A program made the translations under genes and the position numbers. The notes beneath the pieces were generated by a model that saw only the letters and a list, made by a program, of their open reading frames with translations, did no database searches and had not been told where the DNA came from. From contig JBBPIG010000013.1 of NCBI GenBank assembly GCA_038040445.1, positions 62,001-126,000 of the forward strand: a DNA stretch of 64,000 nt, written 5' to 3'. Each line of letters opens with the position of its first letter. Within the stretch, counting starts at the first letter, position 1. Shown in pieces: positions 10,653 through 50,340 of this stretch. This DNA is from Acidobacteriota bacterium. Lineage in GTDB: Bacteria; Acidobacteriota; Blastocatellia; UBA7656.

Positions 10653-11619
10653 CGCGACCTTGATAGAACAACTCGATGAAGCGCTGGAGGCGATCCTCGC
10701 CAACCCCGGTGCGCCGCTTCCGCCTGTGAACGCGAGTGTCGATGCGCTGCTTCGCGTTGCTGCCGAGTTGCGCGATCTTCCTCGCGCGGACTTCAAAGCT
10801 CGTCTTAAGGCTGATCTCGAAAGGAGAGCATCTATGCGAACGACCGCAGTCAAACCGATCCGTGAGGGTTTCCATACGATCACTCCATATCTCATCGTCA
10901 AGGAGGCGGCTGAACTGATCGATTTCGTGAAGCAGGCATTCGGCGCCGGCGAACTCTATCGAGGTACGGGAACAGCCGGCGGGATCCACGCCGAGGTGAA
11001 GATCGGAGACTCGATTGTCATGATGGGAGGCGGCCCGGCTTTGGGTCGAGCTTCGAGCCCGACTGGAATTCACCTCTACGTCGAGGATGCCGACGCTGTT
11101 TATGAGCGCGCGTTGCAAGCGGGCGGTACATCTATGTACGGACCAGTGGATCAGGTCTATGGAGACCGCGAAGCCGGCGTTAAGGACCTGTCGGGCAATC
11201 ATTGGTACATTGCCACGCACAAAGGAGCCGGGCACATCCCCGAAGGCCTTCGCACAGTGACGCCCTTTTTGCATCCACGCGGCGCAGATCGGATGATTGA
11301 CTTCCTAAAAGAGGCCTTTGGCGCGGAAGAGGAATCTCGAGCGCAGTCGCCGGACGGTGTCATTCATCACGCGACGGTCAGGATCGGCGACTCAATGATT
11401 GAGATGGGTGAAGCCCACGGCGAATGGCAACCGATGGCCACGACGTTTTTCATGTACGTGGACGATGTAGACAGCGTGTACCAGCGCGCGGTTGCGGCGG
11501 GCGGTGTTTCGCAAAGCGAGCCGGCCGATCAGCCTTATGGAGACCGCGTAGCGGGCGTATCGGATCCGTTCGACAACGTCTGGTATATTGCCACTCACAT
11601 AAGGGACGCACCGGCGTAG
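10645..11619 (+). CDS. Anti-sigma-like N-terminus fused to two VOC (PhnB-like) domains
   Basis: 324 residues. Residues 1-62 (IEQLDEALEAILANP, VDALLRVAAELRDLPR, FKARLKADLERR) resemble the cytoplasmic N-terminal part of anti-sigma factors usually encoded after ECF genes. Residues about 70-195 and 200-320 are two vicinal-oxygen-chelate domains of the PhnB type (TITPYLIVKEAAELIDFVKQAF; GIHLYVEDADAVYERAL; VYGDREAGVKDLSGNHWYIATH, and the repeat TVTPFLHPRGADRMIDFL). VOC domains bind metals or small hydrophobic ligands. The gene overlaps the sigma gene by eight bases. The fusion suggests that a ligand-binding domain senses a signal and controls the sigma factor. An internal ATG after the N-terminal part (about 10834) preceded by GGAGAG could give a VOC-only product. 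The stop codon lies inside a TAGTCCG repeat. Confidence 0.8.
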   Translation: MANATLIEQLDEALEAILANPGAPLPPVNASVDALLRVAAELRDLPRADFKARLKADLERRASMRTTAVKPIREGFHTITPYLIVKEAAELIDFVKQAFGAGELYRGTGTAGGIHAEVKIGDSIVMMGGGPALGRASSPTGIHLYVEDADAVYERALQAGGTSMYGPVDQVYGDREAGVKDLSGNHWYIATHKGAGHIPEGLRTVTPFLHPRGADRMIDFLKEAFGAEEESRAQSPDGVIHHATVRIGDSMIEMGEAHGEWQPMATTFFMYVDDVDSVYQRAVAAGGVSQSEPADQPYGDRVAGVSDPFDNVWYIATHIRDAPA

Positions 11620-11731
11620 TCCGTAGTCCGTAGTCCGTAGTCAAACGGAACGCAGTTCTCATTTTGAGCGAACCAACTGGCGACTGACCACGGAACCACG
11701 GACTACGGACTACGGACTACGGACTACGGAC
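11615..11731. repeat. Inverted repeat of (TAGTCCG)n words
   Basis: The left arm 11615-11642 is four copies of TAGTCCG/GTAGTCC; the right arm 11683-11731 is five copies of CGGACTA with a CCACGG variant. The two can pair into a hairpin of about 26 bp around a 40-nt loop. The left arm includes the TAG stop codon of the upstream gene. The same words recur at 14129 and 21580. Likely a terminator-like or mRNA-stabilising hairpin, or a mobile intergenic word repeat. Confidence 0.85.
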
Positions 11732-11765
11732 TTGAGAGACCATATCAACGAAAGAGGAGAGATTC

Positions 11766-14128: not shown

Positions 14129-14183
14129 GTAGTCCGTAGTCAGTGGTCCGTTAGCTACGGACTACTGACCACGGACTACGGAC
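14129..14183. repeat. Inverted repeat of TAGTCCG words
   Basis: Left arm GTAGTCCGTAGTCAGTGGTCCG (14129-14150; shown in full as 22 bases split 20+2) and right arm ending GACCACGGACTACGGAC (to 14183) form a hairpin with a 4-5 nt loop. It sits between the two secreted-protein genes and lacks a clear U tract. It is the second of three loci with the same word family (see 11615 and 21580). Confidence 0.8.
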
Positions 14184-17145: not shown

Positions 17146-17547
17146 TCAACGGCCGGTGAATAAGGTCTTCTCATCCACAAAGCAAAGCCCGTTGCCCCAG
17201 GGATCCCTAACGTAGAACGATCGCTCACCCCAGGGGCGTTTGACGATGTCGCCGGCGCGTTCTTCGTGGACCTCCTCCGTTGAGAGGCATCCTAGCTCGC
17301 TCGCACGTTCGTGAACCCTTTCGACGTCCTTCACCGAGAAGTAAACGTCATCGACGTTGGGCGACGGCTCGATATCGCCGGGTGCCGGGTCAAGAATCGC
17401 CAGGATCACCGGGCCACAATCGAAGTAAGCTCGCGAACCACGCAGCTTCCTTCCCTTGATCCCAAGCAGTTTGGTATAGAAGTCGACGGCCGCATCGAGG
17501 TCGGCAACCTCCAACACCACTCGGAACAGCTTAGGCGCGTCAGCCAT
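17146..17547 (-). CDS. VOC family glyoxalase-like protein
   Basis: 133 residues: LFRVVLEVADLDAAVDFYTKLLG at the N-terminus, YFDCGPVILAILDP in the middle, then VDDVYFSVKDVERVHERASELG and a C-terminal WGERSFYVRDPWGNGLCFVDE. The D-P-W-G-N and E-R-S-F-Y pattern is typical of single-domain VOC proteins, with the C-terminal Glu as a metal ligand. Unlike the PhnB-type proteins at 10645-12769 it belongs to the more ordinary glyoxalase/bleomycin-resistance type. Cytoplasmic, function unknown. Transcribed away from the hydrolase gene in a convergent arrangement. Confidence 0.85.
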   Translation of the reverse strand: MADAPKLFRVVLEVADLDAAVDFYTKLLGIKGRKLRGSRAYFDCGPVILAILDPAPGDIEPSPNVDDVYFSVKDVERVHERASELGCLSTEEVHEERAGDIVKRPWGERSFYVRDPWGNGLCFVDEKTLFTGR

Positions 17548-17709
17548 CGTTCATCTCCTTTCTGCGATTCAACAGTGAACCAAAGTCGGAGAAGCGATTG
17601 AGAAATACCCGTGACCCCGGCCGAACTGAATCACTGTCGCCGGTCAGCCAAGGCTAAAGTGATAGTTGCGCCGGTATCATCATGGTTTCGGCATGGTTTC
17701 AGCCGGGTT

Positions 17710-18138
17710 TCAGCGCCGTCCATAGAGTCTCAAAGTTGGCCGCCGCCGCCAATTCTCCTTCTCGTACCAGAACTCCACGCTTCGTATGCCTCGCCGGTCA
17801 CCCGGCAGGTCAATCGCGCGTGTCCTTCCGCCAGCGCGTATTCGCTCCCGGACGTCGACCTGATGATCGGCGCCGTTCTCAAAATGAACGACCACCCGGT
17901 TGAATTCAATGGCGCCGCCTTGAACCTGGAGCTGAATCGCCCGGAACCCCCCGCGCGCGTTCACACGGATGTTGTCGTGGTCCGACCTGCCGTCTACGTG
18001 AGATTGTCCGAGGTATTCCCATCGTCCCCCGCGGTCACGGTCGTCGTCGCGGTTACGCCTCTGAGCATCTGTAGCAATGGTGAAACTGAACAGCAGAACC
18101 AACGCACCAACCACGCGAATCGATCTTTGTAAGTTCAT
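17710..18138 (-). CDS. Small secreted protein, DUF2541-like
   Basis: 142 residues from ATG 18138 (GGAG in GAAGGAGAAACC just upstream; an upstream ATG at 18153 is less likely). The N-terminus VVGALVLLFSFTIATDAQ is a signal peptide. An Arg/Asp-rich stretch (RRNRDDDRDRGGRWEYLGQ) follows. The C-terminal part (FRAIQLQVQGGAIEFNRVVVHFENG to IRSVEFWYEKENWRRRPTLRLYG, in parts) has the beta-strand pattern of DUF2541. Function unknown; basic and possibly surface-associated. Confidence 0.72.
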   Translation of the reverse strand: MNLQRSIRVVGALVLLFSFTIATDAQRRNRDDDRDRGGRWEYLGQSHVDGRSDHDNIRVNARGGFRAIQLQVQGGAIEFNRVVVHFENGADHQVDVRERIRAGGRTRAIDLPGDRRGIRSVEFWYEKENWRRRPTLRLYGRR

Positions 18139-18211: not shown

Positions 18212-18437
18212 AAGGGCAAAGTGCGAAGGGCTAAGAGCAAAGTGCGAAGGGCTAAGAGCAAAGGGCGAAGCGCTAAGAGCAAAGGGCAAAGGGCTAAGAG
18301 CAAAGGGCAAAGGGCGAAGGGCAATGGGATCCTTCGCCCTTCAGCATTCGCCTTCTGCTCTTTGCCCTTTGCCCTTAGCGCTTCGCCCTTTGCTCTTTGT
18401 TCGTTGCTCTTTGCTCTTTGCCCTTTGCTCTTTGCTC
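18212..18437. repeat. Large palindrome of GGGCTAAGAGCAAA / GGGCAAA words
   Basis: The left arm (18212-18328) is a run of imperfect copies of GGGCTAAGAGCAAA and AAGGGCGAAGGGC. The right arm (18331-18437) is the reverse complement in style (CTTTGCCCTTTGCTCTTTG). Together they could fold into a stem of more than 100 bp around GGATCC. The right arm ends on the stop codon of the ankyrin gene and the left arm ends about 70 bp upstream of the DUF2541 gene. It resembles the other word-palindromes of this window in design but not in sequence. Confidence 0.9.
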
Positions 18438-21579: not shown

Positions 21580-21668
21580 ATGTCCGTAGTCCGTAGTCCG
21601 TAGTCAGTCGCTGATTGGAGAAGGAAGTTCGATTTGACCACGGACCACGGACTACGGACTACGGACTA
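21580..21668. repeat. Intercistronic TAGTCCG inverted repeat
   Basis: The left arm 21582-21606 (GTCCGTAGTCCGTAGTCCG then TAGTCAG) is complementary to the right arm 21637-21668 (GACCACGGACCACGG then ACTACGGAC repeats). The right arm touches ATG 21669, so no Shine-Dalgarno lies in the normal position before the permease start. In a binding-protein/permease operon such a hairpin could lower permease synthesis or protect the upstream message. Third of three TAGTCCG loci. Confidence 0.85.
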
Positions 21669-33507: not shown

Positions 33508-36500
33508 TCAGAATGATTTGGTCCAGGTGCCGAACGGTTTGAACGGATTGCCTCCCGCCGCCCGATCTACGGTTACGTCTATGGTCTTCTTCGGTCCTCG
33601 CCCCGCGGATGTTCCCAGAGAGAAAGCGTTCGCGAGGAAGAGATCGCCCGGCGTCCCCGAGATCGTCGCATTGAAGCGGCTGGTGGCTGCGGCATCGTCG
33701 TACCACAGCCTCGCCGTTCCGCTACGATGACCGCTGCTGGCAGCAATGCGCACCGACAGGCGCAGTCCCAGCGTGTCGCCCGCACAGAGATTCGCCTGCG
33801 AGCTCAGCGCGAGGTTGATTGTGTCGAGAATGGCGTTGTTGAACCCGCTGCTACCGCCGGGTACATCGTTGAGCTGGCCGGAACCTATCACGCTACCGTT
33901 CCTCAGCACTTCAGCCAACAGATCGAACTTCGTTCCAACGTCATCGCTGTTCTTCAGTCCTATCCAGACCTTGGCCGGGCCGAGCGCGGTGAGTTGTGGA
34001 ACATTCACCGTTATTGTGAAGCTGCACGAAGAAGTCAGGTTAGCAGAGTCAGTCGCCGTGCAAGACACGGTCGTCGTGCCCACCGGGAATGTCGAACCCG
34101 ATGGAGGCGAACAAACGGGCGCCGCAAGTGAACAGTTGTCGCTCGCGATCGGAGCCGAGTAAGTGACAACTGCCGAGCAGACTCCGGCGTCGGTGCTAAC
34201 CGTGATGTTCGGCGGACAGATGATCTGAGGAGCTTGATTGTCAACGACCGTCACCGTGAACGAGCAGGCAGCCGTATTGCCTGCGGTATCGGTCGCGGTG
34301 CAGTTAACGGTAGTCGTTCCCTTTTGGAAGGCCGAGCCAGACTGGGGATTGCACGCGACGCTCGCCCCTGAACAGTTGTCACTGGCAGTCGCTGTATAGG
34401 TGACGACAGCCGAGCACAAGCCGGCATCGGTATTCCTGTTGATGTTGGCCGGGCAGGTGATCGCCGGCGGCTGAGTGTCGTTGACTGTGACTGTCTGTTG
34501 GCACATTGCAGAGTTTCCTGCCGCGTCTGTCGCAATCCAGGTGATCGTTGTCATGCCGACCGGATATGGAGCCGTAAGCGCCAGCCCATCGCTTCGCGTG
34601 CCGGCTGGAGTCACGCTCCCATCAATGTTGTCTGTCGCAGTCGCCGCTCCGGTGTTCACGCTAGCGGAACACTGGTCGGGCGAATTTGATGTCGCCACAT
34701 TGGCCGCGCAGGTGACTATCGGCGGAGTTGTATCAGCCGCGTTACATGTGTTAAGCAGAATAAACACTTTTTGGCTGTCGGGGGCGGCCACAGCGATGTC
34801 CGGCTTGCCGTCACCATTGAGATCGGCGGCGACAAGTCCGAACGGCCCCTGTCCGACGGGGAAATAAGTTGGAGTTGAGAAGGAGCCTGCCCCATCGCCG
34901 AGCAAAACAGCTACTGAGGGATTTCCAAACCTCACTTGCACGACGATGTCGGCGTTGTGGTCACCGTTGAAATCAGCAACTCTTACTATGGTTGCGTGAT
35001 CACCCGTCGCATAGAAAGTGGGAGCGCCGAAGCTGCCCGACCCATTGCCTAAGAGAACGGATACGCCGTTGCTCAATTCATCGGCAACAACAAGATCTAG
35101 GTTGCCGTCGCTGTTGAAATCGGCAATCGCAAGCGTGACCGGCGTGCATCCAGCCGGGAAGCTAGTCGGCGGGGCAAACCCGCCCGCTCCGTCGCCTAGC
35201 TGGATAGAGACACTGCAACCATTGTGATTCGTTGTGACGAGGTCGAGCTTACCATCTCCGTTGAAATCGGCTGTCGTTATTCCGAAGGGGCCCGACCCAG
35301 CAGTCAATATCGTGGCCGGGCTGAACCCGCCCGCGCCGTCTCCGAAGAAGAGGCGCACGTTAATCTTACCCTGATCTGTTACTGCCAGATCGAGATTGCC
35401 GTCACGATCAAAGTCTCCAAGCGCCGCATACCTTGCGTTGCCTGGGACCGGGAGGATCGCCGTGGTGGTGAATCCTCCTGCACCGTCACCGAGCATGACT
35501 GCGCAGCTAGCACCGGAATAACATGGGATCGCAAGATCGAGCTTGCCGTCGTTGTTGAAGTCTCCGACTTCGACAGAGTTGGGGATGCTCGGTGTTGTGA
35601 AATCTCCGCCGTGAGTGAACCCGCCTGCACCGTTGCCCAGGAAGATGGACACAATGTCTGCGCCCTGATTGATCACCATATCAACCTTGCCATCGTTGTT
35701 GAAGTCGGCTGCTGCAATGAAAACCGGACCCTGTAATGGAGCGATCTCGGCCGGCGGGCCGAAACTCGGTGTAGTGCATACAGACTGTGGCCGGGTATCA
35801 CTGACCGTGACAGTGAAAGCGCGAGAGGTGGCATTGCCCGCACTATCGGTCGCAGCGCAATTGACCGTAGTTGCGCCAATCGGGAAGATCGCTCCAGACG
35901 GAGGATTGCAGGTGAGGCTTACACTTGAACAATTGTCACTGGCCGTCGCCACGTAGTTCACTACCAATGAGGACAGGCCAGAATCAACATACTTGGTGAA
36001 GTTACCAGGACAGATGAGAGTCGGCGGCTGCGTGTCGTTGATCGTGATGGTCTGCTGGCACGTTGCCGAGTTGCCAGCGCTGTCAGTGGCCGTCCATGTG
36101 ATCGTGGTCGCGCCGACCGGATACGGAGCAGAGAGCGATTGAGCATCACTGCGCACGGCGGTCGGAGTGATCGCGCCATCAACGTTGTCTGTAGCAGTAG
36201 CCGTCCCGGTATTCACATTAGCGGAACACTGGTTCGCAGCATTTGGCGCTGCAACGTTCGAAGGACAGATAATCGTCGGCGGAGTTGTATCAGCCGCGCC
36301 ACAAGTGTTAAGAAAAATCTGCACGTCACTGGCGCCAGCATTGCCAACGCCAAAGTCTGGTTTGCCATCGCGGTTGAAATCAGCGGCGACAACACTGATG
36401 GGGCTAGGCCCGACAGTAATGTTGTTCAGCCCGCCGAAATTCCCTGTACCGTCGCCAAGCAGGACCGAGATTCTACCTGCTTCTCTTTGTTGCACGACCA

Positions 36501-38013
36501 AATCCTGCTTATTGTCGCCGTTGAAATCTGCGACCGCGACGATGGATGGGTTGTCGCCCACCATAACATCAGTCTTGGGGCCAAAGCCGCCCGCTCCATC
36601 GCCAAGAAGAACGGAAAGACGGAAAGTCAATTCATTCGCTGTGACTAGATCGAGCTTACCGTCACCATTCAAATCGGCAATGGTAAATCGGTACGGAGTG
36701 TAGCCCGCGAGGAAGCTGGTCGGCGGCGCAAAGCCTCCGTTGCCATCGCCGAGCAAGATAGAGCCAGTGCCGTCCCTATAGTTCGTTACTGCGAGATCGT
36801 CTTTCCCATCTCCATTGAAATCGGCCGACGTCAGACCGTATGGACCCAAACCAGCCGTGAAGTTCGAAGGCGCGCTGAAGCCGCCCGTTCCGTTGCCGAA
36901 GAAGAGCCGTATGACATTTTCATCCTGCTCGGTTACGGCTATGTCGAGCTTGCCATCACGGTTGAAGTCGCGAAGCGCCGCGAATCTGGCGCCCCTCGGA
37001 GCTGAAAGGTTCGCTACCGTCGTGAATCCGCCCGCGCCATCTCCGAGCAGGACCGTCACGCTCCCGCCGAAGAAACACGGTACGGCCAGATCAGGCTTTC
37101 CGTCGTTATTGAAGTCTCCGGCCTCAACAGAATTCGGTGTGTGAGCTGTTGGGAATTCTCCGACACGAGTGAACCCGCCTGCCCCGTCTCCCAACAGGAC
37201 GCCCACCGAATCCGTTCCTTGATTGGTGGTAGCTAGGTCAAGCTTGCTGTCGTTGTTGAAGTCGGCGACGGTAACGTAGGTTGGACCTCGACCCGTAAAG
37301 AAGTTGCCCGCGTTGGCGAAACTCGGCGAACTGCAAGCCGGCGCTTGAGGAACGACGTTGAATAGAAACGTCTGCGGCTGCCCGGCGATGGTCAGAGTGA
37401 GAGATGCTGGGCTGACCTGATAGAGACCAGGAGCGAAGGCGCCGCTTTGGCCACCCGCAATCAGTAGGCAGACGAGGTTAGGCACAAGCACGATCGTCTG
37501 CACGCCACTAAAAGGCGTGTAAGCCGCATCGAGATAAGAGGACAACAAGTACTGACCCGAATAGCTGGCGGGGTCGATGGTGATACTAGTGTTGTTGAGC
37601 GTCAAGGTGTTGCCGCTGGACTGCGCGGCGATGGTATTGCCGACGCTCACCACGTGCCCGCCGCTGTCAACGGCAAAGAGGAAATTGGAGGAGAAGCCCG
37701 GGATTGCAACGTGAGAGCCTGAGTCAAGAAAATAGTCCATATTAGGCACAAGCACTATCGTCTGGGGGCCTCTGAGCGAGATGTATGCCGCATCGAGATG
37801 AGAAGACAATTGGTAGTGCCCCGTAAAACCTCCTGGGTTTATGACAAGGCTCGCGTTATTCAAGGTTAGCGTGTTGCCATCTGCCTGGGCGGCAACTGGA
37901 TTACTGACATTTATCACATGCCCGGTGCTGTCAACTGCAAAGGTGAAATTAGGGGCGAAGCCCGGGATCGGAACGTGAGTTCCATTATCAAGGACGTAGA
38001 CCATGTTAGGCAC
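33508..38013 (-). CDS. Giant secreted FG-GAP/VCBS and HYR repeat protein (main part; frameshifted from 38019-38489)
   Basis: 1501 residues. In order: about residues 1-220 two further copies of a beta-rich N-terminal unit (LVPNMVYVLDNGTHVPIPGF / NTLTLNNASLVINPGGFTG type); about 230-575 the first FG-GAP/VCBS block with repeated DFNGDGKxDL calcium-binding loops; about 575-745 HYR domains (TTPPTIICPSNV, TVNCAATDSAGN); about 745-1090 a second FG-GAP block; about 1090-1340 three HYR domains; about 1340-1501 a C-terminal domain (VWIGLKNSDDVGTKFDLLAEVL) seen at the end of related secreted proteins. The start codon here is internal to the true gene: the signal peptide lies in the frame at 38019-38489, and a TA duplication at about 38046-38051 separates them. 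The intact protein would be about 1660 residues, surface-exposed, possibly adhesive. Function unknown. Confidence 0.88.
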   Translation of the reverse strand: MPNMVYVLDNGTHVPIPGFAPNFTFAVDSTGHVINVSNPVAAQADGNTLTLNNASLVINPGGFTGHYQLSSHLDAAYISLRGPQTIVLVPNMDYFLDSGSHVAIPGFSSNFLFAVDSGGHVVSVGNTIAAQSSGNTLTLNNTSITIDPASYSGQYLLSSYLDAAYTPFSGVQTIVLVPNLVCLLIAGGQSGAFAPGLYQVSPASLTLTIAGQPQTFLFNVVPQAPACSSPSFANAGNFFTGRGPTYVTVADFNNDSKLDLATTNQGTDSVGVLLGDGAGGFTRVGEFPTAHTPNSVEAGDFNNDGKPDLAVPCFFGGSVTVLLGDGAGGFTTVANLSAPRGARFAALRDFNRDGKLDIAVTEQDENVIRLFFGNGTGGFSAPSNFTAGLGPYGLTSADFNGDGKDDLAVTNYRDGTGSILLGDGNGGFAPPTSFLAGYTPYRFTIADLNGDGKLDLVTANELTFRLSVLLGDGAGGFGPKTDVMVGDNPSIVAVADFNGDNKQDLVVQQREAGRISVLLGDGTGNFGGLNNITVGPSPISVVAADFNRDGKPDFGVGNAGASDVQIFLNTCGAADTTPPTIICPSNVAAPNAANQCSANVNTGTATATDNVDGAITPTAVRSDAQSLSAPYPVGATTITWTATDSAGNSATCQQTITINDTQPPTLICPGNFTKYVDSGLSSLVVNYVATASDNCSSVSLTCNPPSGAIFPIGATTVNCAATDSAGNATSRAFTVTVSDTRPQSVCTTPSFGPPAEIAPLQGPVFIAAADFNNDGKVDMVINQGADIVSIFLGNGAGGFTHGGDFTTPSIPNSVEVGDFNNDGKLDLAIPCYSGASCAVMLGDGAGGFTTTAILPVPGNARYAALGDFDRDGNLDLAVTDQGKINVRLFFGDGAGGFSPATILTAGSGPFGITTADFNGDGKLDLVTTNHNGCSVSIQLGDGAGGFAPPTSFPAGCTPVTLAIADFNSDGNLDLVVADELSNGVSVLLGNGSGSFGAPTFYATGDHATIVRVADFNGDHNADIVVQVRFGNPSVAVLLGDGAGSFSTPTYFPVGQGPFGLVAADLNGDGKPDIAVAAPDSQKVFILLNTCNAADTTPPIVTCAANVATSNSPDQCSASVNTGAATATDNIDGSVTPAGTRSDGLALTAPYPVGMTTITWIATDAAGNSAMCQQTVTVNDTQPPAITCPANINRNTDAGLCSAVVTYTATASDNCSGASVACNPQSGSAFQKGTTTVNCTATDTAGNTAACSFTVTVVDNQAPQIICPPNITVSTDAGVCSAVVTYSAPIASDNCSLAAPVCSPPSGSTFPVGTTTVSCTATDSANLTSSCSFTITVNVPQLTALGPAKVWIGLKNSDDVGTKFDLLAEVLRNGSVIGSGQLNDVPGGSSGFNNAILDTINLALSSQANLCAGDTLGLRLSVRIAASSGHRSGTARLWYDDAAATSRFNATISGTPGDLFLANAFSLGTSAGRGPKKTIDVTVDRAAGGNPFKPFGTWTKSF

Positions 38014-38018
38014 AAGGA

Positions 38019-38489
38019 CTACAGTCTGGACTCCTCTGAACGAGGTATATATGCCGCATCGAGATGCGAAGACAGTTGGTATTGCCCTGCATAGCTTCTT
38101 GGGTCGACAATGATGCTCGCGTTATTCAACGTGAGAGTGTTGCCGCTGGCCTGTGCAGCAACAGGATTGCTGATGTTAGTCACCTGTCCGCTTCCGTCAA
38201 CCGTGAAGGTGAGGTCAGAAGAAAAGCCCTGATGCTGGGCGCGCGCACCTGTGTCGAGATGGTATGTCCCTGGCGGAAGCTGCACCGTCTGCGATCCTCG
38301 ATACTCGGTCAACCTGTCAGAAATCAGGAAGTAATGTCCCGTATAAGCGCCGGGATCAATGTTGACTTGAAACGTAGGCGAGGCTTTTGTTAAAAACATG
38401 CCGGTCATTAGAAAAGTCGCGGCGAAGGCCAGCGAGACTAGCAGCCGAGAAATCCGCGCAGATTCCAACATTTTGATTCTTCTCATCAT
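38019..38489 (-). CDS. N-terminal part of the giant repeat protein (signal peptide and first units)
   Basis: 156 residues. The signal peptide is in SRLLVSLAFAATFLMTGMFL, followed by KASPTFQ. Then come one and a half beta-rich units (GTYHLDTGARAQHQGF; NNASIIVDPRSYAGQYQLSSHLDAAY). After AAY the frame reads IPRSEESRL and stops at 38019. In the next frame the same DNA continues as TSFRGVQTVVLVPNMVYVLD, which is the family unit, joining smoothly to the 33508-38013 frame. The join needs removal of two bases from TATATA. So this is one gene with a 2-bp expansion; a sequencing error or phase variation is possible. Confidence 0.85.
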   Translation of the reverse strand: MMRRIKMLESARISRLLVSLAFAATFLMTGMFLTKASPTFQVNIDPGAYTGHYFLISDRLTEYRGSQTVQLPPGTYHLDTGARAQHQGFSSDLTFTVDGSGQVTNISNPVAAQASGNTLTLNNASIIVDPRSYAGQYQLSSHLDAAYIPRSEESRL

Positions 38490-38559: not shown

Positions 38560-38844
38560 TCATGAGTTGGCAGCCCAGCCAATCAGGCGCAGGAAAGACA
38601 GCGAATCAAGGCAGACACACAAGCGTCCTGCGGGCGTTTCGCTGAAATGAATCTCGCCGCGCTCCGTCGCGCGATAGATCGAGCGCGCGCTTGTGCCGGC
38701 CACAGCTGCCGCTTCGTCGACGCTGACCATTCGAGCCATCGCCGCGCAACCAGCGCACCAGGCCAGCGCCGGACTGGCGTATCTTCTGAGCACGACGGTC
38801 TCTTCAATGTCTAACCTGATTTCGGTTCGCTTCTTTCCCTTCAC
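38560..38844 (-). CDS. Small excisionase/MerR-like HTH protein with CxxC motif
   Basis: 94 residues from GTG 38844, which has GGAGG four bases upstream; the longer frame to 39021 lacks a ribosome site and its N-terminus is not family-like. Order: KRTEIRLDIEETVVLRR, then LAWCAGCAAMARMVSVDEAAAVAGTSARSIYRATERGEIHFSETPAGRLCVCLDSL (in parts). The VSVDEAAAVAGTSARSIYRAT segment is a helix-turn-helix of the excisionase type, and WCAGC may bind zinc. Related small proteins are frequent in Acidobacteriota. It may bind DNA near its own gene. Divergent from the CadC-like gene. Confidence 0.75.
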   Translation of the reverse strand: MKGKKRTEIRLDIEETVVLRRYASPALAWCAGCAAMARMVSVDEAAAVAGTSARSIYRATERGEIHFSETPAGRLCVCLDSLSFLRLIGWAANS

Positions 38845-39016
38845 TTCGCCTCCAACGATCACCGCGCAGGCTTGCGGCCCTGGTGACCGAACTTCGATCC
38901 GTTGTTTTATTGTTCCGATCAGGGCCTGGTGATGCGAGCGCCACATACGGCTGCCGAAAAGCTCTCGGCAATGGCTCGGAACGGCGCTGACGATACCTTT
39001 AAGCGGGTTGGAAGTC

Positions 39017-39060
39017 TTCACAAAGACTTCACATTCTCATCACATTCGTATCACAATGAT
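39017..39060 (+). promoter_or_regulatory. Four 11-bp-phased WTCACA repeats (OmpR/PhoB-type operator)
   Basis: TTCACA at 39017, TTCACA at 39028, ATCACA at 39039 and ATCACA at 39050: four direct repeats exactly 11 bp apart, on one face of the helix. OmpR/PhoB-type winged-helix regulators bind 11-bp direct repeats of this form. The gene at 39368 encodes such a DNA-binding domain, so autoregulation is a natural inference. The rest of 38845-39367 holds no gene I can support. Confidence 0.65.
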
Positions 39061-39367
39061 CGACCGAAACCGGCAGCTAGGCGAGACGAGGGAGAAAAAC
39101 CCCTGCATGCGCGCGTGGCGGGTTTCGCACAGATACAGCGCATGTGTGAATGGGGACAGAGAGAGATCGGTTCCCACTATGCGTTCTAGATCTTCATTCC
39201 AGACCTCGGCGGTACCTATCCTACGCCGAATGAAGGTCTACGAAGGCTATAGGCTGGGCAGGCGTTTTCCGTGATGAAACATTTGCGCGCAACGCACCAT
39301 CTATTATTGGAGACGCGGAAGTGTCTATTCTTATGCTTAGGTTCAAGCATTCACCTTTCAGACAGTC

Positions 39368-41314
39368 ATGAACGCGCAAACAAAACCCCTTTACGAATTC
39401 GGTCCTTTTCGTCTTGACCCGAAAGAGCACACTCTGCTGCGCGCGGGAGAGGCGGTCCCGCTCACGCCTAAAGTTTTTGATACGTTGCTTGCCCTTGTCG
39501 AAAGCGGCGGCCAGCTAGTCGAGAAAGACGAGTTGATGAATCGCGTCTGGCCGGACGCGATCGTTGAAGAGCGCGGCCTGACACAAAACATATTTCTGCT
39601 CAGAAGAGTGCTGGGCGAAGATGGCGCGCAAGCGAAATATATCGAGACCGTCCCCAAGCGCGGATACCGCTTCGTGGCTGAAATCAATCAGCGCCCAAAC
39701 GGCCAGATGGACTTGATTGTGCAGCGGCGCACGAGCGCCCGACTGAAGATCGAAGAAGAGACCGACATCGGCAATTGGAATGTCGCAAATGCCGCGACTG
39801 ACCCGTCCAGCCGCGAATCGAAAAAACGCGCGCGCAAGTTTACTATTGCGATGGCTGCCGCGGCGCTGCTGGTTGTGCTGGGAGCGGCGTTCTACGGGTT
39901 GATAGGGAATCGCGTAAAACCCGGAGAGACTGCGCCGCGCATAAAATCAATCGCCGTGCTGCCGTTCAAGGTGCTGAATTCAGATGATAACGGATACCTG
40001 GGAATCGGGCTGGCCGATGTCTTGATTACGCGGCTTGGCAATCTCAAGCAGATCAGCGTGCGCCCGACGAGCGCCATACTCAGGTACAGAGACCGCGAGT
40101 TTGACCCTGTGGCCGTGGGCCGCGAGCAGCGAGTCGATGCTGTGCTGGAAGGCCACGTGCACAATCTGGGCGAGCGCATTCGCATCACCGTGCAGTTGAT
40201 CAGCGTCCGCGACGGGTCGCCCGTATGGGCCGAGCAGTTCGATGAAAAGATGAGGGACCTCGCTGCGGTCGAGGATGCCATCTCCAGGCGTCTGGTCGGG
40301 GCGCTCGCGCTCAAACTGGACGCGGAGGAGAAGCAGCGACTGGCCAAACGCTACACCGACAACACAGAGGCTTACCAGCTCTACATCAAGGGCCGCCACT
40401 TCTGGAACAAACGCGATGAGGAGGGCCTGCGGAAAGCCATCGCTACCTTTCGGCAGGCGATTGATCTTGACCCGACTTACGCGCTCGCCTATGCCGGGCT
40501 GGCCGACTGCTACTCCTTTTTAGGGTCGGCTTATTTCGACCCGCTCCCGCCGAAAGAGGATATGCCGAAAGCCAAAGCAGCAGCCGTCAGGGCCGTCGAA
40601 CTGGACGACACGTTAGCCGAAGCGCACTCGGCGTTGGCTTTCGTTCAAGGTTGGTACGATTTGGATTGGCCCGGCGCGGAACGCGAATTAAAGCGCGCGC
40701 TGGAGCTGAACTCCAACTATGCGACCGCGCATCAAAGATACGGCTGGTACTTCTTAGCGATGGGGCGGCTGGATGAAGCGCTGGCCGAGATGAAACGCGC
40801 GCAGGAATGTGATCCGCTGTCGCCGGTTATCAACATCAACATCGGCGGCTTCCTCTACTATCAACGCCGCTACGACCAGGCGCTTGAGCAGTTTCAAAAG
40901 ATGGCAGAGATAGACCCAAGCTTCAGTTGGAATCCTACCTGGGCAGGCATGGCATATTTGGAGAAAGGCGATTTCACGCGCGCCATCGCAGGGTTCCAAC
41001 AAGAGAAGCAACCCTGGGAGCAAGGCGTATGGGGGCTTGGCGTGGCCTACGCGCGGTCAGGAAAACCAGCGGCGGCACGGAACATATTGAGTAGATTTCA
41101 GGAATTCGCCAGACAGCGTTATGTATCGCCTTCCGCGTTCATCCTGATCTACACGGCGCTGGGAGAAAAAGATCAGACATTCGCCTGGCTTGAGAAAGCT
41201 TATGAAGAGCGCGATTTTGATCTCGGCGTGCTGAAAGTTGATCCGAAGCTCGACCCGCTGCGCTCAGACCCGCGATTTACAGACCTGCTCAGGCGCGTCG
41301 GCCTCCCACAATAA
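39368..41314 (+). CDS. CadC-like membrane transcriptional regulator with TPR repeats
   Basis: 648 residues. Residues about 8-105 are an OmpR/PhoB-type winged helix (FRLDPKEHTLLRAGEAVPLTPKVFDTLLALVE; ETVPKRGYRFVAE, in parts). A single membrane segment is AMAAAALLVVLGAAFYGLIG (about 160-180). A FlgO/TolB-like domain follows (IAVLPFKVLNSDDNGYLGIGLADVLITRLG, in parts, about 195-300). Then TPR repeats (AYQLYIKGRHFWNKRDEEGLRKAIATFRQAIDLDPTYALAYAGLADCY in parts) run to the C-terminus. Such one-component regulators bind promoters directly from the membrane. Four 11-bp repeats about 310 bp upstream may be its operator. Followed by a strong terminator hairpin. Confidence 0.93.
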   Translation: MNAQTKPLYEFGPFRLDPKEHTLLRAGEAVPLTPKVFDTLLALVESGGQLVEKDELMNRVWPDAIVEERGLTQNIFLLRRVLGEDGAQAKYIETVPKRGYRFVAEINQRPNGQMDLIVQRRTSARLKIEEETDIGNWNVANAATDPSSRESKKRARKFTIAMAAAALLVVLGAAFYGLIGNRVKPGETAPRIKSIAVLPFKVLNSDDNGYLGIGLADVLITRLGNLKQISVRPTSAILRYRDREFDPVAVGREQRVDAVLEGHVHNLGERIRITVQLISVRDGSPVWAEQFDEKMRDLAAVEDAISRRLVGALALKLDAEEKQRLAKRYTDNTEAYQLYIKGRHFWNKRDEEGLRKAIATFRQAIDLDPTYALAYAGLADCYSFLGSAYFDPLPPKEDMPKAKAAAVRAVELDDTLAEAHSALAFVQGWYDLDWPGAERELKRALELNSNYATAHQRYGWYFLAMGRLDEALAEMKRAQECDPLSPVININIGGFLYYQRRYDQALEQFQKMAEIDPSFSWNPTWAGMAYLEKGDFTRAIAGFQQEKQPWEQGVWGLGVAYARSGKPAAARNILSRFQEFARQRYVSPSAFILIYTALGEKDQTFAWLEKAYEERDFDLGVLKVDPKLDPLRSDPRFTDLLRRVGLPQ

Positions 41315-47793: not shown

Positions 47794-50340
47794 TCACAAA
47801 GAGGCAACGCGTTTCTGCAACTCAGTCGCGATGATCGCAGGATCGTCGTTGGGAGAGAAGCTCACCGCCTCGCCTATAGTAACTTTGATCCGGCCGCCGC
47901 GCGCGAAGTGCTCCCCACGTTTCTTAACCTCATACAAGCCATCGATCCGCGCCGGTACGATCTGAACGTTCAGCTTCCTGGCAAGCAAGCCAATGCCTTC
48001 CATGAATGGTTTCATCTGACCGTCCGGAGTGCGCGCGCCTTCGGGAAACACCAGCACGCTGTAGCCGCGGTCCATTGTCTCGCCCGCAAATGCGAAGCTC
48101 CTGCGAAAACCGCTCTTTTGCGGAAGTGGAAACACGTTGAACAACGAGACTACGAGCACGTACGCCGCGAACCAGATCAGCCGACTGAACCAGCCCGGGC
48201 CTGCCTGAGGATGACGCCAGCCGCGCAGGACTTCTCCTTCCATCGCAATGGCGAGCTTCCTTTGAAACCTCGCCGGCAGCGCTAGAAGAATCACTGCCGC
48301 GTCCACCATCGTGATGTGATTTGCTATAAACAACACCGGGCCTTGAACGCCTCTCAATCGCTCTTTTCCGATTACCGTCGCGCGACTCATCAATCGCGTG
48401 AGCGGCAGGATAACGAGATGGAAAACGGCGAACCGAATCCACGTGGCGGGAAAGCGCTGTGTCCACTCCGGGTATTCGTACTGAACCGCCGTCTCGCGCG
48501 CGCCCTCGCGAATTATCCTCTCGAGATCGCCTATGGTGGTCGCAGCAGTAAAAGCGGCTTCGTCAATGTCGACCTGATAATGGTCTTCGAGCGCGCCGAG
48601 TAACTCGACTCGCCCGAGCGAATCGAGCTTCAGATCCGACTCGAGATTCGCCGATTGATCGACGGTAGCCAGAGATTCGCCACTGACGCGTGCAACAGCG
48701 CTCAATATGAACGATGTCGGCGCGACTTGCCCATCGCCGTCTACTGACCTCTGATCTCTGGCCTCTGACCTCTGATTTACCTTCTCCTTCACTAGAAGCT
48801 TGCGGATCTTCTGCGTCGGGGTTCGCGGAAAATCCTCTTCGGGCCAAATGATCCAACGGCGCATCTGCTGATAAGGACTGAGCGTCTCGTTAGCGCGCTT
48901 CAAGATCGAAGCTACATCGGCTTGCTCGTCTCTCAGCAGCAGCACAGCAAACGGTTCGGGGCCCTGGGGAGTGTAGCTTTCGACCACCGCGCTATCTCGA
49001 ACCTCGGGTTGCGCATTCAACGCGGCCTCAAGATCGTCGGGGTAGATGTTCAAGCCCGCCGACGTTACGATCACGTCTTTCTTGCGTCCCTTAAAATAGA
49101 GGTTCCCTTGTTCGTCCAATTCCCCTACGTCGCCGGTTCGCAGCCAACCTTCTTCGTTTGTCATTGGCCGCAGCCCGCCGCCCCAGTAGCCCGGCGACAC
49201 GTTTTGGCCGCGCACCAGGATCTCGCCGCGCTCATCGAGCTTCACTTCGTGTCCGGGAAGCGTCTTGCCGATAGACCTGCGGCTGAGATTGAAAGGATGA
49301 TTGACCGTGATCAGCGCAGCGGCCTCGGTCATCCCGTAGCCCTGCACAACAGCGAACCCCAGCCTTCGCCAGAACGCTTCGGTTTCAGGAGACAACGCGG
49401 CCCCGCCTGATAGCAACGACCAGAACTTCCAACCGAACTGACGATGAACTCTGCGAAATGTCCACCATCGTTTGAGGAAGTGCTGGTGTTCAGCCGCGAT
49501 GAGTTTCCGCTTGAACGCTTCGCCTTCGCCTCGCGCCTCGTAGTCCCGCTCGATCTTGTTTCGCAGAGTGTCGAGCACCCGCGGCACGCTGACGATAACC
49601 GAGATGCGATGCTTCTTAACGGTCTCGATAATCTCAGAGGGATTCAGGGAGTCTTGAAAAACAATCTCGCCCGCGAGCAATTGCGGAACAATGATACCCA
49701 TAAACTGGCCGAAGACATGACTCAATGGAAGCAGGTTAAGAAATCGCACCGGATGAACAAGACGTTCGTACTTCAGATATTTTTTAATTTCCGGTTCCAG
49801 AGGGTTGATATTAGCGAGCAGGTTGCCATGGGTGAGACAGACGCCCTTTGGCTCGGCGGTCGTCCCTGAAGTAAAAATGATTTCGGCGATGTCGCTTTCA
49901 ACGATTTCGACCGGCGGATAAGGCTCAGCCGAATGAAGTGCAAGAACGTCGGACAGCTCTTCAAGCCAAAGGGCCGGCAAATTCATCTTCGAATCGCGCA
50001 GTCGCACGCCGCTTGAGAGAATCAGCTTTGCTCCTACTTGCTCCTGGACTCGATCTGCGAATTCGGCGGAGGCTTCAAAATCGAGCGGCACAACGATCAC
50101 ACCGCGCAGCAGACAACCGAAGAAAGCGGCCACCCACTCAGGGCAGTTTTCCGCCCAGAACAACACGCGGTCGCCTTTTGATATGTTCCGAGTTTCAAGC
50201 TCACGCGCGAATTGAAACGCCGTCGTTCTCAAACGGGCGTACGACCAGCGCGAGACTCTGAGCCCGCGGCGATGCGCGAGCGCTGTTTGTGACCCGTGCT
50301 TCTCGCAGTCATCAAGAAGACTCAGAAGGTTCTTGCGCAT
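47794..50340 (-). CDS. Fusion of AMP-forming acyl ligase, acyl carrier domain and PlsC-type acyltransferase
   Basis: 848 residues. Residues about 1-510 are an AMP-binding ligase (IIFTSGTTAEPKGVCLTHGN; VVQGYGMTEAAALITVNH; GWLRTGDVGELDEQGNLYFKGRKKDVIVTSAGLNIYP in parts). A linker at about 515-545 contains the RSEARDQRSV word repeat. Residues about 550-620 are an acyl carrier domain with the phosphopantetheine Ser in SDLKLDSLGRVELLGAL. Residues about 650-845 are a PlsC-type acyltransferase (ANHITMVDAAV, the H-x4-D motif; FPEGARTPDGQMKPF). The combination can activate a fatty acid, load it on its own carrier domain and transfer it to a lipid, as in Aas-type lysophospholipid acylation. Acts at the membrane (segments AVFHLVILPLTRL and LIWFAAYVLVVSLFNVF). 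Confidence 0.9.
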   Translation of the reverse strand: MRKNLLSLLDDCEKHGSQTALAHRRGLRVSRWSYARLRTTAFQFARELETRNISKGDRVLFWAENCPEWVAAFFGCLLRGVIVVPLDFEASAEFADRVQEQVGAKLILSSGVRLRDSKMNLPALWLEELSDVLALHSAEPYPPVEIVESDIAEIIFTSGTTAEPKGVCLTHGNLLANINPLEPEIKKYLKYERLVHPVRFLNLLPLSHVFGQFMGIIVPQLLAGEIVFQDSLNPSEIIETVKKHRISVIVSVPRVLDTLRNKIERDYEARGEGEAFKRKLIAAEHQHFLKRWWTFRRVHRQFGWKFWSLLSGGAALSPETEAFWRRLGFAVVQGYGMTEAAALITVNHPFNLSRRSIGKTLPGHEVKLDERGEILVRGQNVSPGYWGGGLRPMTNEEGWLRTGDVGELDEQGNLYFKGRKKDVIVTSAGLNIYPDDLEAALNAQPEVRDSAVVESYTPQGPEPFAVLLLRDEQADVASILKRANETLSPYQQMRRWIIWPEEDFPRTPTQKIRKLLVKEKVNQRSEARDQRSVDGDGQVAPTSFILSAVARVSGESLATVDQSANLESDLKLDSLGRVELLGALEDHYQVDIDEAAFTAATTIGDLERIIREGARETAVQYEYPEWTQRFPATWIRFAVFHLVILPLTRLMSRATVIGKERLRGVQGPVLFIANHITMVDAAVILLALPARFQRKLAIAMEGEVLRGWRHPQAGPGWFSRLIWFAAYVLVVSLFNVFPLPQKSGFRRSFAFAGETMDRGYSVLVFPEGARTPDGQMKPFMEGIGLLARKLNVQIVPARIDGLYEVKKRGEHFARGGRIKVTIGEAVSFSPNDDPAIIATELQKRVASL
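48742..48782. repeat. Word repeat inside a coding sequence (TCTGACC/TCAGAGGTC)
   Basis: On the plus strand CTACTGACCTCTGATCTCTG and then GCCTCTGACCTCTGATT follow one another. On the coding strand this is four near-copies of GAGGTCAGA/GAGATCAGA. It encodes the linker NQRSEARDQRSVDG between the ligase and the carrier domain. It is a direct word repeat of the intergenic style but in frame. No partner arm was seen in the neighbourhood. Confidence 0.7.

Follow-up and report, generated by a model that had tools for sequence, protein, structure and literature searches.

The WTCACA array

Which protein reads four phased hexamers that lie some 310 bp in front of a gene for a CadC-like regulator, and which promoter do they serve? 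The question is raised by a locus of an Acidobacteriota genome at which TTCACA, TTCACA, ATCACA and ATCACA (WTCACA four times) follow one another in steps of exactly 11 bp, beginning at positions 39017, 39028, 39039 and 39050 of the window, by which we mean the whole 64-kb stretch of DNA that was analysed. A sequence-only reading had reported the four repeats and placed them about 310 bp upstream of the CadC-like gene. All four were found where it had put them, and 312 bp separate the last from the ATG at 39368.

39017..39022, plus strand: half-site 1, TTCACA, at about -34 to -39 of the predicted divergent start site
39028..39033, plus strand: half-site 2, TTCACA, at about -45 to -50 of that start site
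39039..39044, plus strand: half-site 3, ATCACA, at about -56 to -61 of that start site
39050..39055, plus strand: half-site 4, ATCACA, at about -67 to -72 of that start site
39056..39367, plus strand: DNA between the array and the regulator start codon, 312 bp, single-copy in the genome
39368..41314, plus strand: regulator with a winged helix, a transmembrane segment and C-terminal TPRs

The array is real and far above chance. When the window was scanned for exact 5-mers present in four copies at a single period of 7 to 20 bp, the scan yielded nothing but TCACA (period 11 bp) and a few tandem arrays with a period of 7 bp, and 100 first-order shuffles of the window returned zero. No second WTCACA array was found in the 6.7-Mb genome (three copies, one mismatch allowed), and the four-copy pattern, again with one mismatch allowed, is absent from seven relatives of the same order, because homologues of the adjacent regulator use other spellings (see below).

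Other repeats were observed in the window. A second 11-bp array at 17673-17714 consists of about 3.8 copies of GGTTTCAGCAT (CTGAAAC, minus strand) and precedes a glyoxalase-like ORF of the minus strand (17146-17547) by about 130 nt; another regulator of the OmpR fold may bind there. Short tandem 7-bp arrays of GACTACG/CGTAGTC or close variants are spread over 10 kb (11615-11642, 11686-11732, 14155-14183, 21582-21605 and 21636-21668), and the region 18212-18437 holds long 7-bp and 21-bp tandem arrays of the AAGGGCA type as a facing inverted pair.

The adjacent regulator

The regulator begins with a Trans_reg_C winged helix (PF00486, 8.7e-17; residues 27-102) with nothing upstream of it, and no receiver domain was found in the protein. 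Its hydropathy profile has a single strong hydrophobic peak at about residues 158-180, the predicted transmembrane segment, after which come the TPRs of the C-terminus. Over the whole protein the best NCBIfam match is HilA/EilA (NF009037, 134.7 bits against a cut-off of 589), and the CadC model (NF007540) gives 101.4 bits against a cut-off of 400, so that by curated cut-offs the regulator is neither. The closest solved DNA-binding domains are those of CadC (5ju7, E 7e-24) and ToxR. The protein is best read as a ToxR/CadC/HilA-like membrane-anchored one-component regulator.

A cis-element shared by homologous genes

We collected 212 non-identical regions upstream of genes whose products have an N-terminal winged helix homologous to that of the 39368 gene; they come from Blastocatellia relatives, other Acidobacteriota and some records labelled Verrucomicrobia, and include metagenome-assembled genomes. 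In the last 75 nt ahead of the regulator start codon, 5-mer repeats spaced 11 nt apart number 32.6 per 1000 positions, with a secondary peak of 17.9 per 1000 at 22 nt, against a lag-11 rate of about 2 per 1000 in controls taken further upstream or inside the gene. In a three-copy test, a spacing of 11 bp takes 25 percent of the genes above the 99th percentile of shuffles, and spacings of 9, 10, 12, 13 or 14 bp take 0-2.4 percent above it.

An iterated position matrix recovered a shared block in 162 of the 212 homologues (2 percent in the reversed-sequence control), the other 50 genes having no block at the matrix threshold. Its layout is AAGTC(C/T)T followed by half-sites of the form CTNAAA (TNAA-type) every 11 nt, and across the 162 loci the AAGTC box is the most conserved part. 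The A of AGTC stands most often 48-50 nt before the regulator start codon, with a tail reaching 318 nt, and the array usually ends 6-8 nt before that codon. A matrix trained without the window gene has its top score in the 64 kb, on both strands, at 39013, where it reaches 17.5 bits against a threshold of 12.3. The next score, 11.8 at 50307, is below threshold and inside a long ORF of the other strand, and we take it as chance. The window array is thus one case of a cis-element widespread in Acidobacteriota and some Verrucomicrobia, and equivalent repeats upstream of homologous genes, the check proposed with the sequence-only reading, do exist.

The window locus is at the edge of this family in one respect: its array starts 355 nt before the regulator start, against a maximum of 318 at the other loci, and 312 bp follow the array, compared with about 6-8 nt in most homologues. 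The intervening DNA (39056-39367) was considered as an inserted mobile element, a reading rejected on its single copy in the genome and its want of clear terminal repeats. A few inverted repeats resembling stem-loops occur in it, at a place that in homologues spans less than 10 nt.

The recognition helix and the spelling of the half-sites

39572..39595, plus strand: recognition helix codons 69-76 (R G L T Q N I F), carrying the residues found to covary with half-site bases among homologues

The half-sites of one gene agree with each other, differ from those of other genes and track the recognition helix of the adjacent regulator. We measured mutual information between half-site bases and 112 protein columns in a set of 147 proteins below 75 percent identity, ranking the columns by summed z-score; the top five are, in order, residues 73, 76, 72, 70 and 69, all of them in the recognition helix, the control being the other columns of the same proteins and not a tree model, so that ancestry can inflate the signal. 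In a leave-one-out, nearest-neighbour test, six helix residues predicted the half-site bases with 0.68 correct, while 300 random sets of six variable residues gave a mean of 53 percent and at most 59 percent, and the whole domain minus the helix gave 60 percent.

Several pairings of residue 73 can be picked out by eye: Q73 with TNAA, V73 with CTAAA, K73 with CTGG, R73 with CGGAA or TTACA, D73 with CTCG and F73 with AAG. The window regulator has a rare glycine at residue 70, and in all five callable Gly70 loci, the window included, half-site position 8 is C, where the usual base is A; this pairing accounts for the odd CACA spelling in the window. Residues 69, 70, 72, 73 and 76 align with S86, S87, T89, Q90 and S93 of ToxR. 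In a structural study (PMC8517210), T89, Q90 and S93 belong to the surface inserted into the major groove, and the ToxR variants Q90R and S87A are cited as defective in binding. With more than 150 related regulators, each having its own spelling, a table of amino acids against DNA letters becomes readable.

A divergent promoter at fixed spacing

A strong A....T signature stands at a fixed place of the block beyond AAGTC, and it reads as a -10 element mainly on the minus strand, with an exact TAnnnT in 73 loci against 8 on the plus strand, or 121 against 36 by score. AAGTC and the minus-strand TAnnnT are 17 or 18 nt apart in 94 of the 162 loci and almost never at another spacing, a clear TAnnnT being seen in just 58 percent of loci. 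Circularity was controlled with 74 loci picked solely by an AGTC 43-62 nt before the start codon; of these, 41 have TAnnnT at 17 or 18 nt, the mean being 0.25 for each other spacing. As the spacer has normal promoter length, AAGTC (GACTT on the minus strand) lies in the -35 position. The assignment of a plus-strand -10 before the array, together with autoregulation, was dropped, the -10 being the minus-strand TAnnnT; the sole match of a sigma-70 consensus scan, on the plus strand within the array, was disregarded.

In the window these elements, and the genes that lie beyond them on the minus strand, are as follows.

39013..39018, minus strand: presumed -35 region AAGACT, the reverse complement of the conserved AGTCYT box, overlapping half-site 1
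38990..38995, minus strand: -10 hexamer TATCGT, spacer 17 nt, predicted start site about 38983
38560..38844, minus strand: divergent gene 1, a 94-aa HTH_17/excisionase-like protein, GTG start at 38844 after GGAGG
38019..38489, minus strand: divergent gene 2, 5' ORF with an N-terminal signal-like segment
33508..38013, minus strand: divergent gene 2, continued, a 1501-aa FG-GAP/HYR repeat protein

The -35 region matches TTGACA poorly, in GAC only. The 94-aa protein, presumably encoded by the first gene of the target operon, belongs to an uncharacterised family of small proteins that combine a CxxC motif with an HTH_17/excisionase-like helix-turn-helix scoring below curated cut-offs. The same family supplies the divergent gene in 13 other loci, at one of which (L015) it is likewise followed by a similar-looking FG-GAP-type secreted protein. 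The ORFs 38019-38489 and 33508-38013 are probably one gene for a secreted FG-GAP/HYR protein, split by a frameshift. The apparent frameshift lies near 38046-38052, where 264-bp repeats span the break, and may be natural or an assembly error.

By crude ORF calling, the neighbour on the AAGTC side is divergent at 113 loci and co-directional at 30, about 20 percent of loci having a same-strand neighbour; where flanks are long the figures are 67 divergent against 17 same-strand, compared with a baseline of 14 against 19 among the genes of the window. The divergent genes are diverse, and signal-like N-termini, by a crude rule, occur in 62 of 105, compared with 15 of 45 window ORFs. The minus-strand -10 at fixed spacing and the mostly divergent neighbours put the array between about -34 and -72 of a divergent promoter. 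This -10 is retained in 78 of 134 arrays close to the regulator ATG and in 16 of 28 displaced arrays; since displaced arrays keep it, the unit is the array plus the divergent promoter. The gap of about 310 bp in the window is then no longer puzzling, the distance to the regulator being irrelevant.

These results bear on what had first been proposed for the locus. That the array is an operator of an OmpR-family winged-helix protein is borne out for the type of array, of the Pho-box/tox-box kind, and for the adjacent regulator (162 of 212 blocks; helix covariation), and is not borne out for the promoter: the idea that the repeats serve the downstream CadC-like gene finds no support in the conserved -10, which lies on the minus strand. 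This favours instead the divergent HTH gene, which had been offered as an alternative target together with an unseen RNA; of the latter there is no sign, Rfam giving no match to an RNA element at the locus.

Proposed mechanism and alternatives

The array and its uniqueness in the genome, the promoter geometry, the divergent arrangement and the helix covariation were established computationally. It is very probable that the adjacent membrane-anchored regulator lands on these four repeats at the promoter of the divergent gene. We further consider it likely that the array is the private operator of this ToxR/CadC/HilA-like protein acting as an activator of the divergent operon; physical binding, and activation over repression, we infer from sequence. 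In such a scheme, the DNA-binding domains would occupy three or four half-sites in head-to-tail order along one helix face (a number of protomers that we infer), sitting directly upstream of, and overlapping, the weak -35 element of the minus-strand promoter. RNA polymerase would thereby be recruited to the divergent operon, which would yield the small HTH protein and then the secreted FG-GAP/HYR protein, the signal for activation presumably being received by the C-terminal TPR part of the regulator. Every paralogue has a half-site spelling of its own, which its recognition helix would read, and such private spellings suggest that each regulator mainly serves one neighbouring operon.

Alternatively, the array might be part of the regulator gene's own promoter or 5' leader and block its transcription. 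Since arrays mostly end 6-8 nt short of the regulator start codon, protein bound there would cover the leader of that gene too, and such negative autoregulation could coexist with divergent control. However, the -10 at fixed spacing is on the minus strand, both by exact match and by score, and displaced arrays, including that of the window at 312 bp, keep the minus-strand promoter and not the distance to the regulator; we judge autoregulation unlikely, if still the strongest of the competing accounts. Repression of the divergent promoter by the regulator, either as its only effect or in alternation with activation, is less probable again and in our view doubtful. A poor -35 hexamer, as found here, is typical of promoters dependent on an activator of the OmpR type, and the array, extending as far upstream as about -72, does not cover the -10 or the start site, although half-site 1 overlaps the -35 region, which is also a place for a repressor to bind, and ToxR activates or represses depending on the promoter (PMC8517210).

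The same winged-helix fold and the identical geometry of 11-bp direct repeats would suit a Pho box bound by a PhoB/PhoP-like phosphate response regulator, but there is one site in the genome, no receiver domain, and a spelling that tracks the helix of the adjacent regulator, which make a Pho box very improbable. We give next to no credence to a chance or functionless low-complexity repeat: that tandem repeats arise is shown by the short 7-bp arrays elsewhere in the window, but 162 homologues have equivalent blocks in equivalent places with gene-specific spelling.

Comparison with known systems

Regulators of the ToxR/CadC/HilA-like kind and direct repeats bound by OmpR-fold proteins are known in kind. 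The array resembles the Pho boxes of PhoB/OmpR proteins in the winged-helix fold that goes with it and in its head-to-tail 11-bp direct repeats overlapping the -35 region, and differs in having no receiver domain and no regulon, the genome containing one site. HilA and EilA, the enterobacterial SPI-1-type activators, likewise join a winged helix to a TPR-like C-terminus. HilA is cytosolic and has several operons under its control, and its site near -39 consists of two direct TTKHAT repeats at a distance of about 11 bp; the present system has a transmembrane segment and a single site. CadC, the activator of cadBA in E. coli, shares the winged helix, the one transmembrane helix and the one main target operon, but its sites are AT-rich, head-to-head and far upstream, at -153 to -113 (PMC5430869), unlike the direct repeats here, which lie between about -34 and -72 of the divergent promoter.

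ToxR of Vibrio cholerae is similar in being a membrane-anchored winged helix without a receiver domain and in using direct half-sites of the TNAAA type, near the family consensus CTNAAA, and the covarying residues fall on its T89, Q90, S93 and neighbours. Its tox-box is printed as TNAAA-N5-TNAAA (PMC8517210), two half-sites at 10 bp, whereas here there are three or four at 11 bp. The present system further differs from ToxR in having one operator per regulator, located at a divergent promoter, TPRs in place of the ToxR periplasmic domain, and dozens of paralogues per genome with different spellings.

Implications

A search of open-licence papers returned no report of this regulator class in Acidobacteria or of such a code, and no description of divergent promoters that, across a lineage, have private tandem operators and follow a readable code. 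We lean towards the view that genomes of Acidobacteriota and some Verrucomicrobia run dozens of parallel circuits, each of one regulator and one operon, in which membrane-anchored winged-helix/TPR activators act through private 11-bp tandem operators at divergent promoters of mostly secreted proteins and are kept apart by a helix code (residues 69, 70, 72, 73 and 76 against half-site positions 4-8). If this is true, the code is readable from sequence and could be used to predict or rewire targets.

For the large families of winged-helix/TPR regulators in Acidobacteriota, no known targets were found in the open-licence literature. About three quarters of the sampled regulators now have a target promoter predicted from sequence alone, and are thereby connected with divergent genes, many of whose products have signal peptides (by a crude test). 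Such a code is hard to obtain from a few model regulators with degenerate sites; hundreds of natural regulator-operator pairs would make the recognition code of the OmpR/ToxR fold directly testable.
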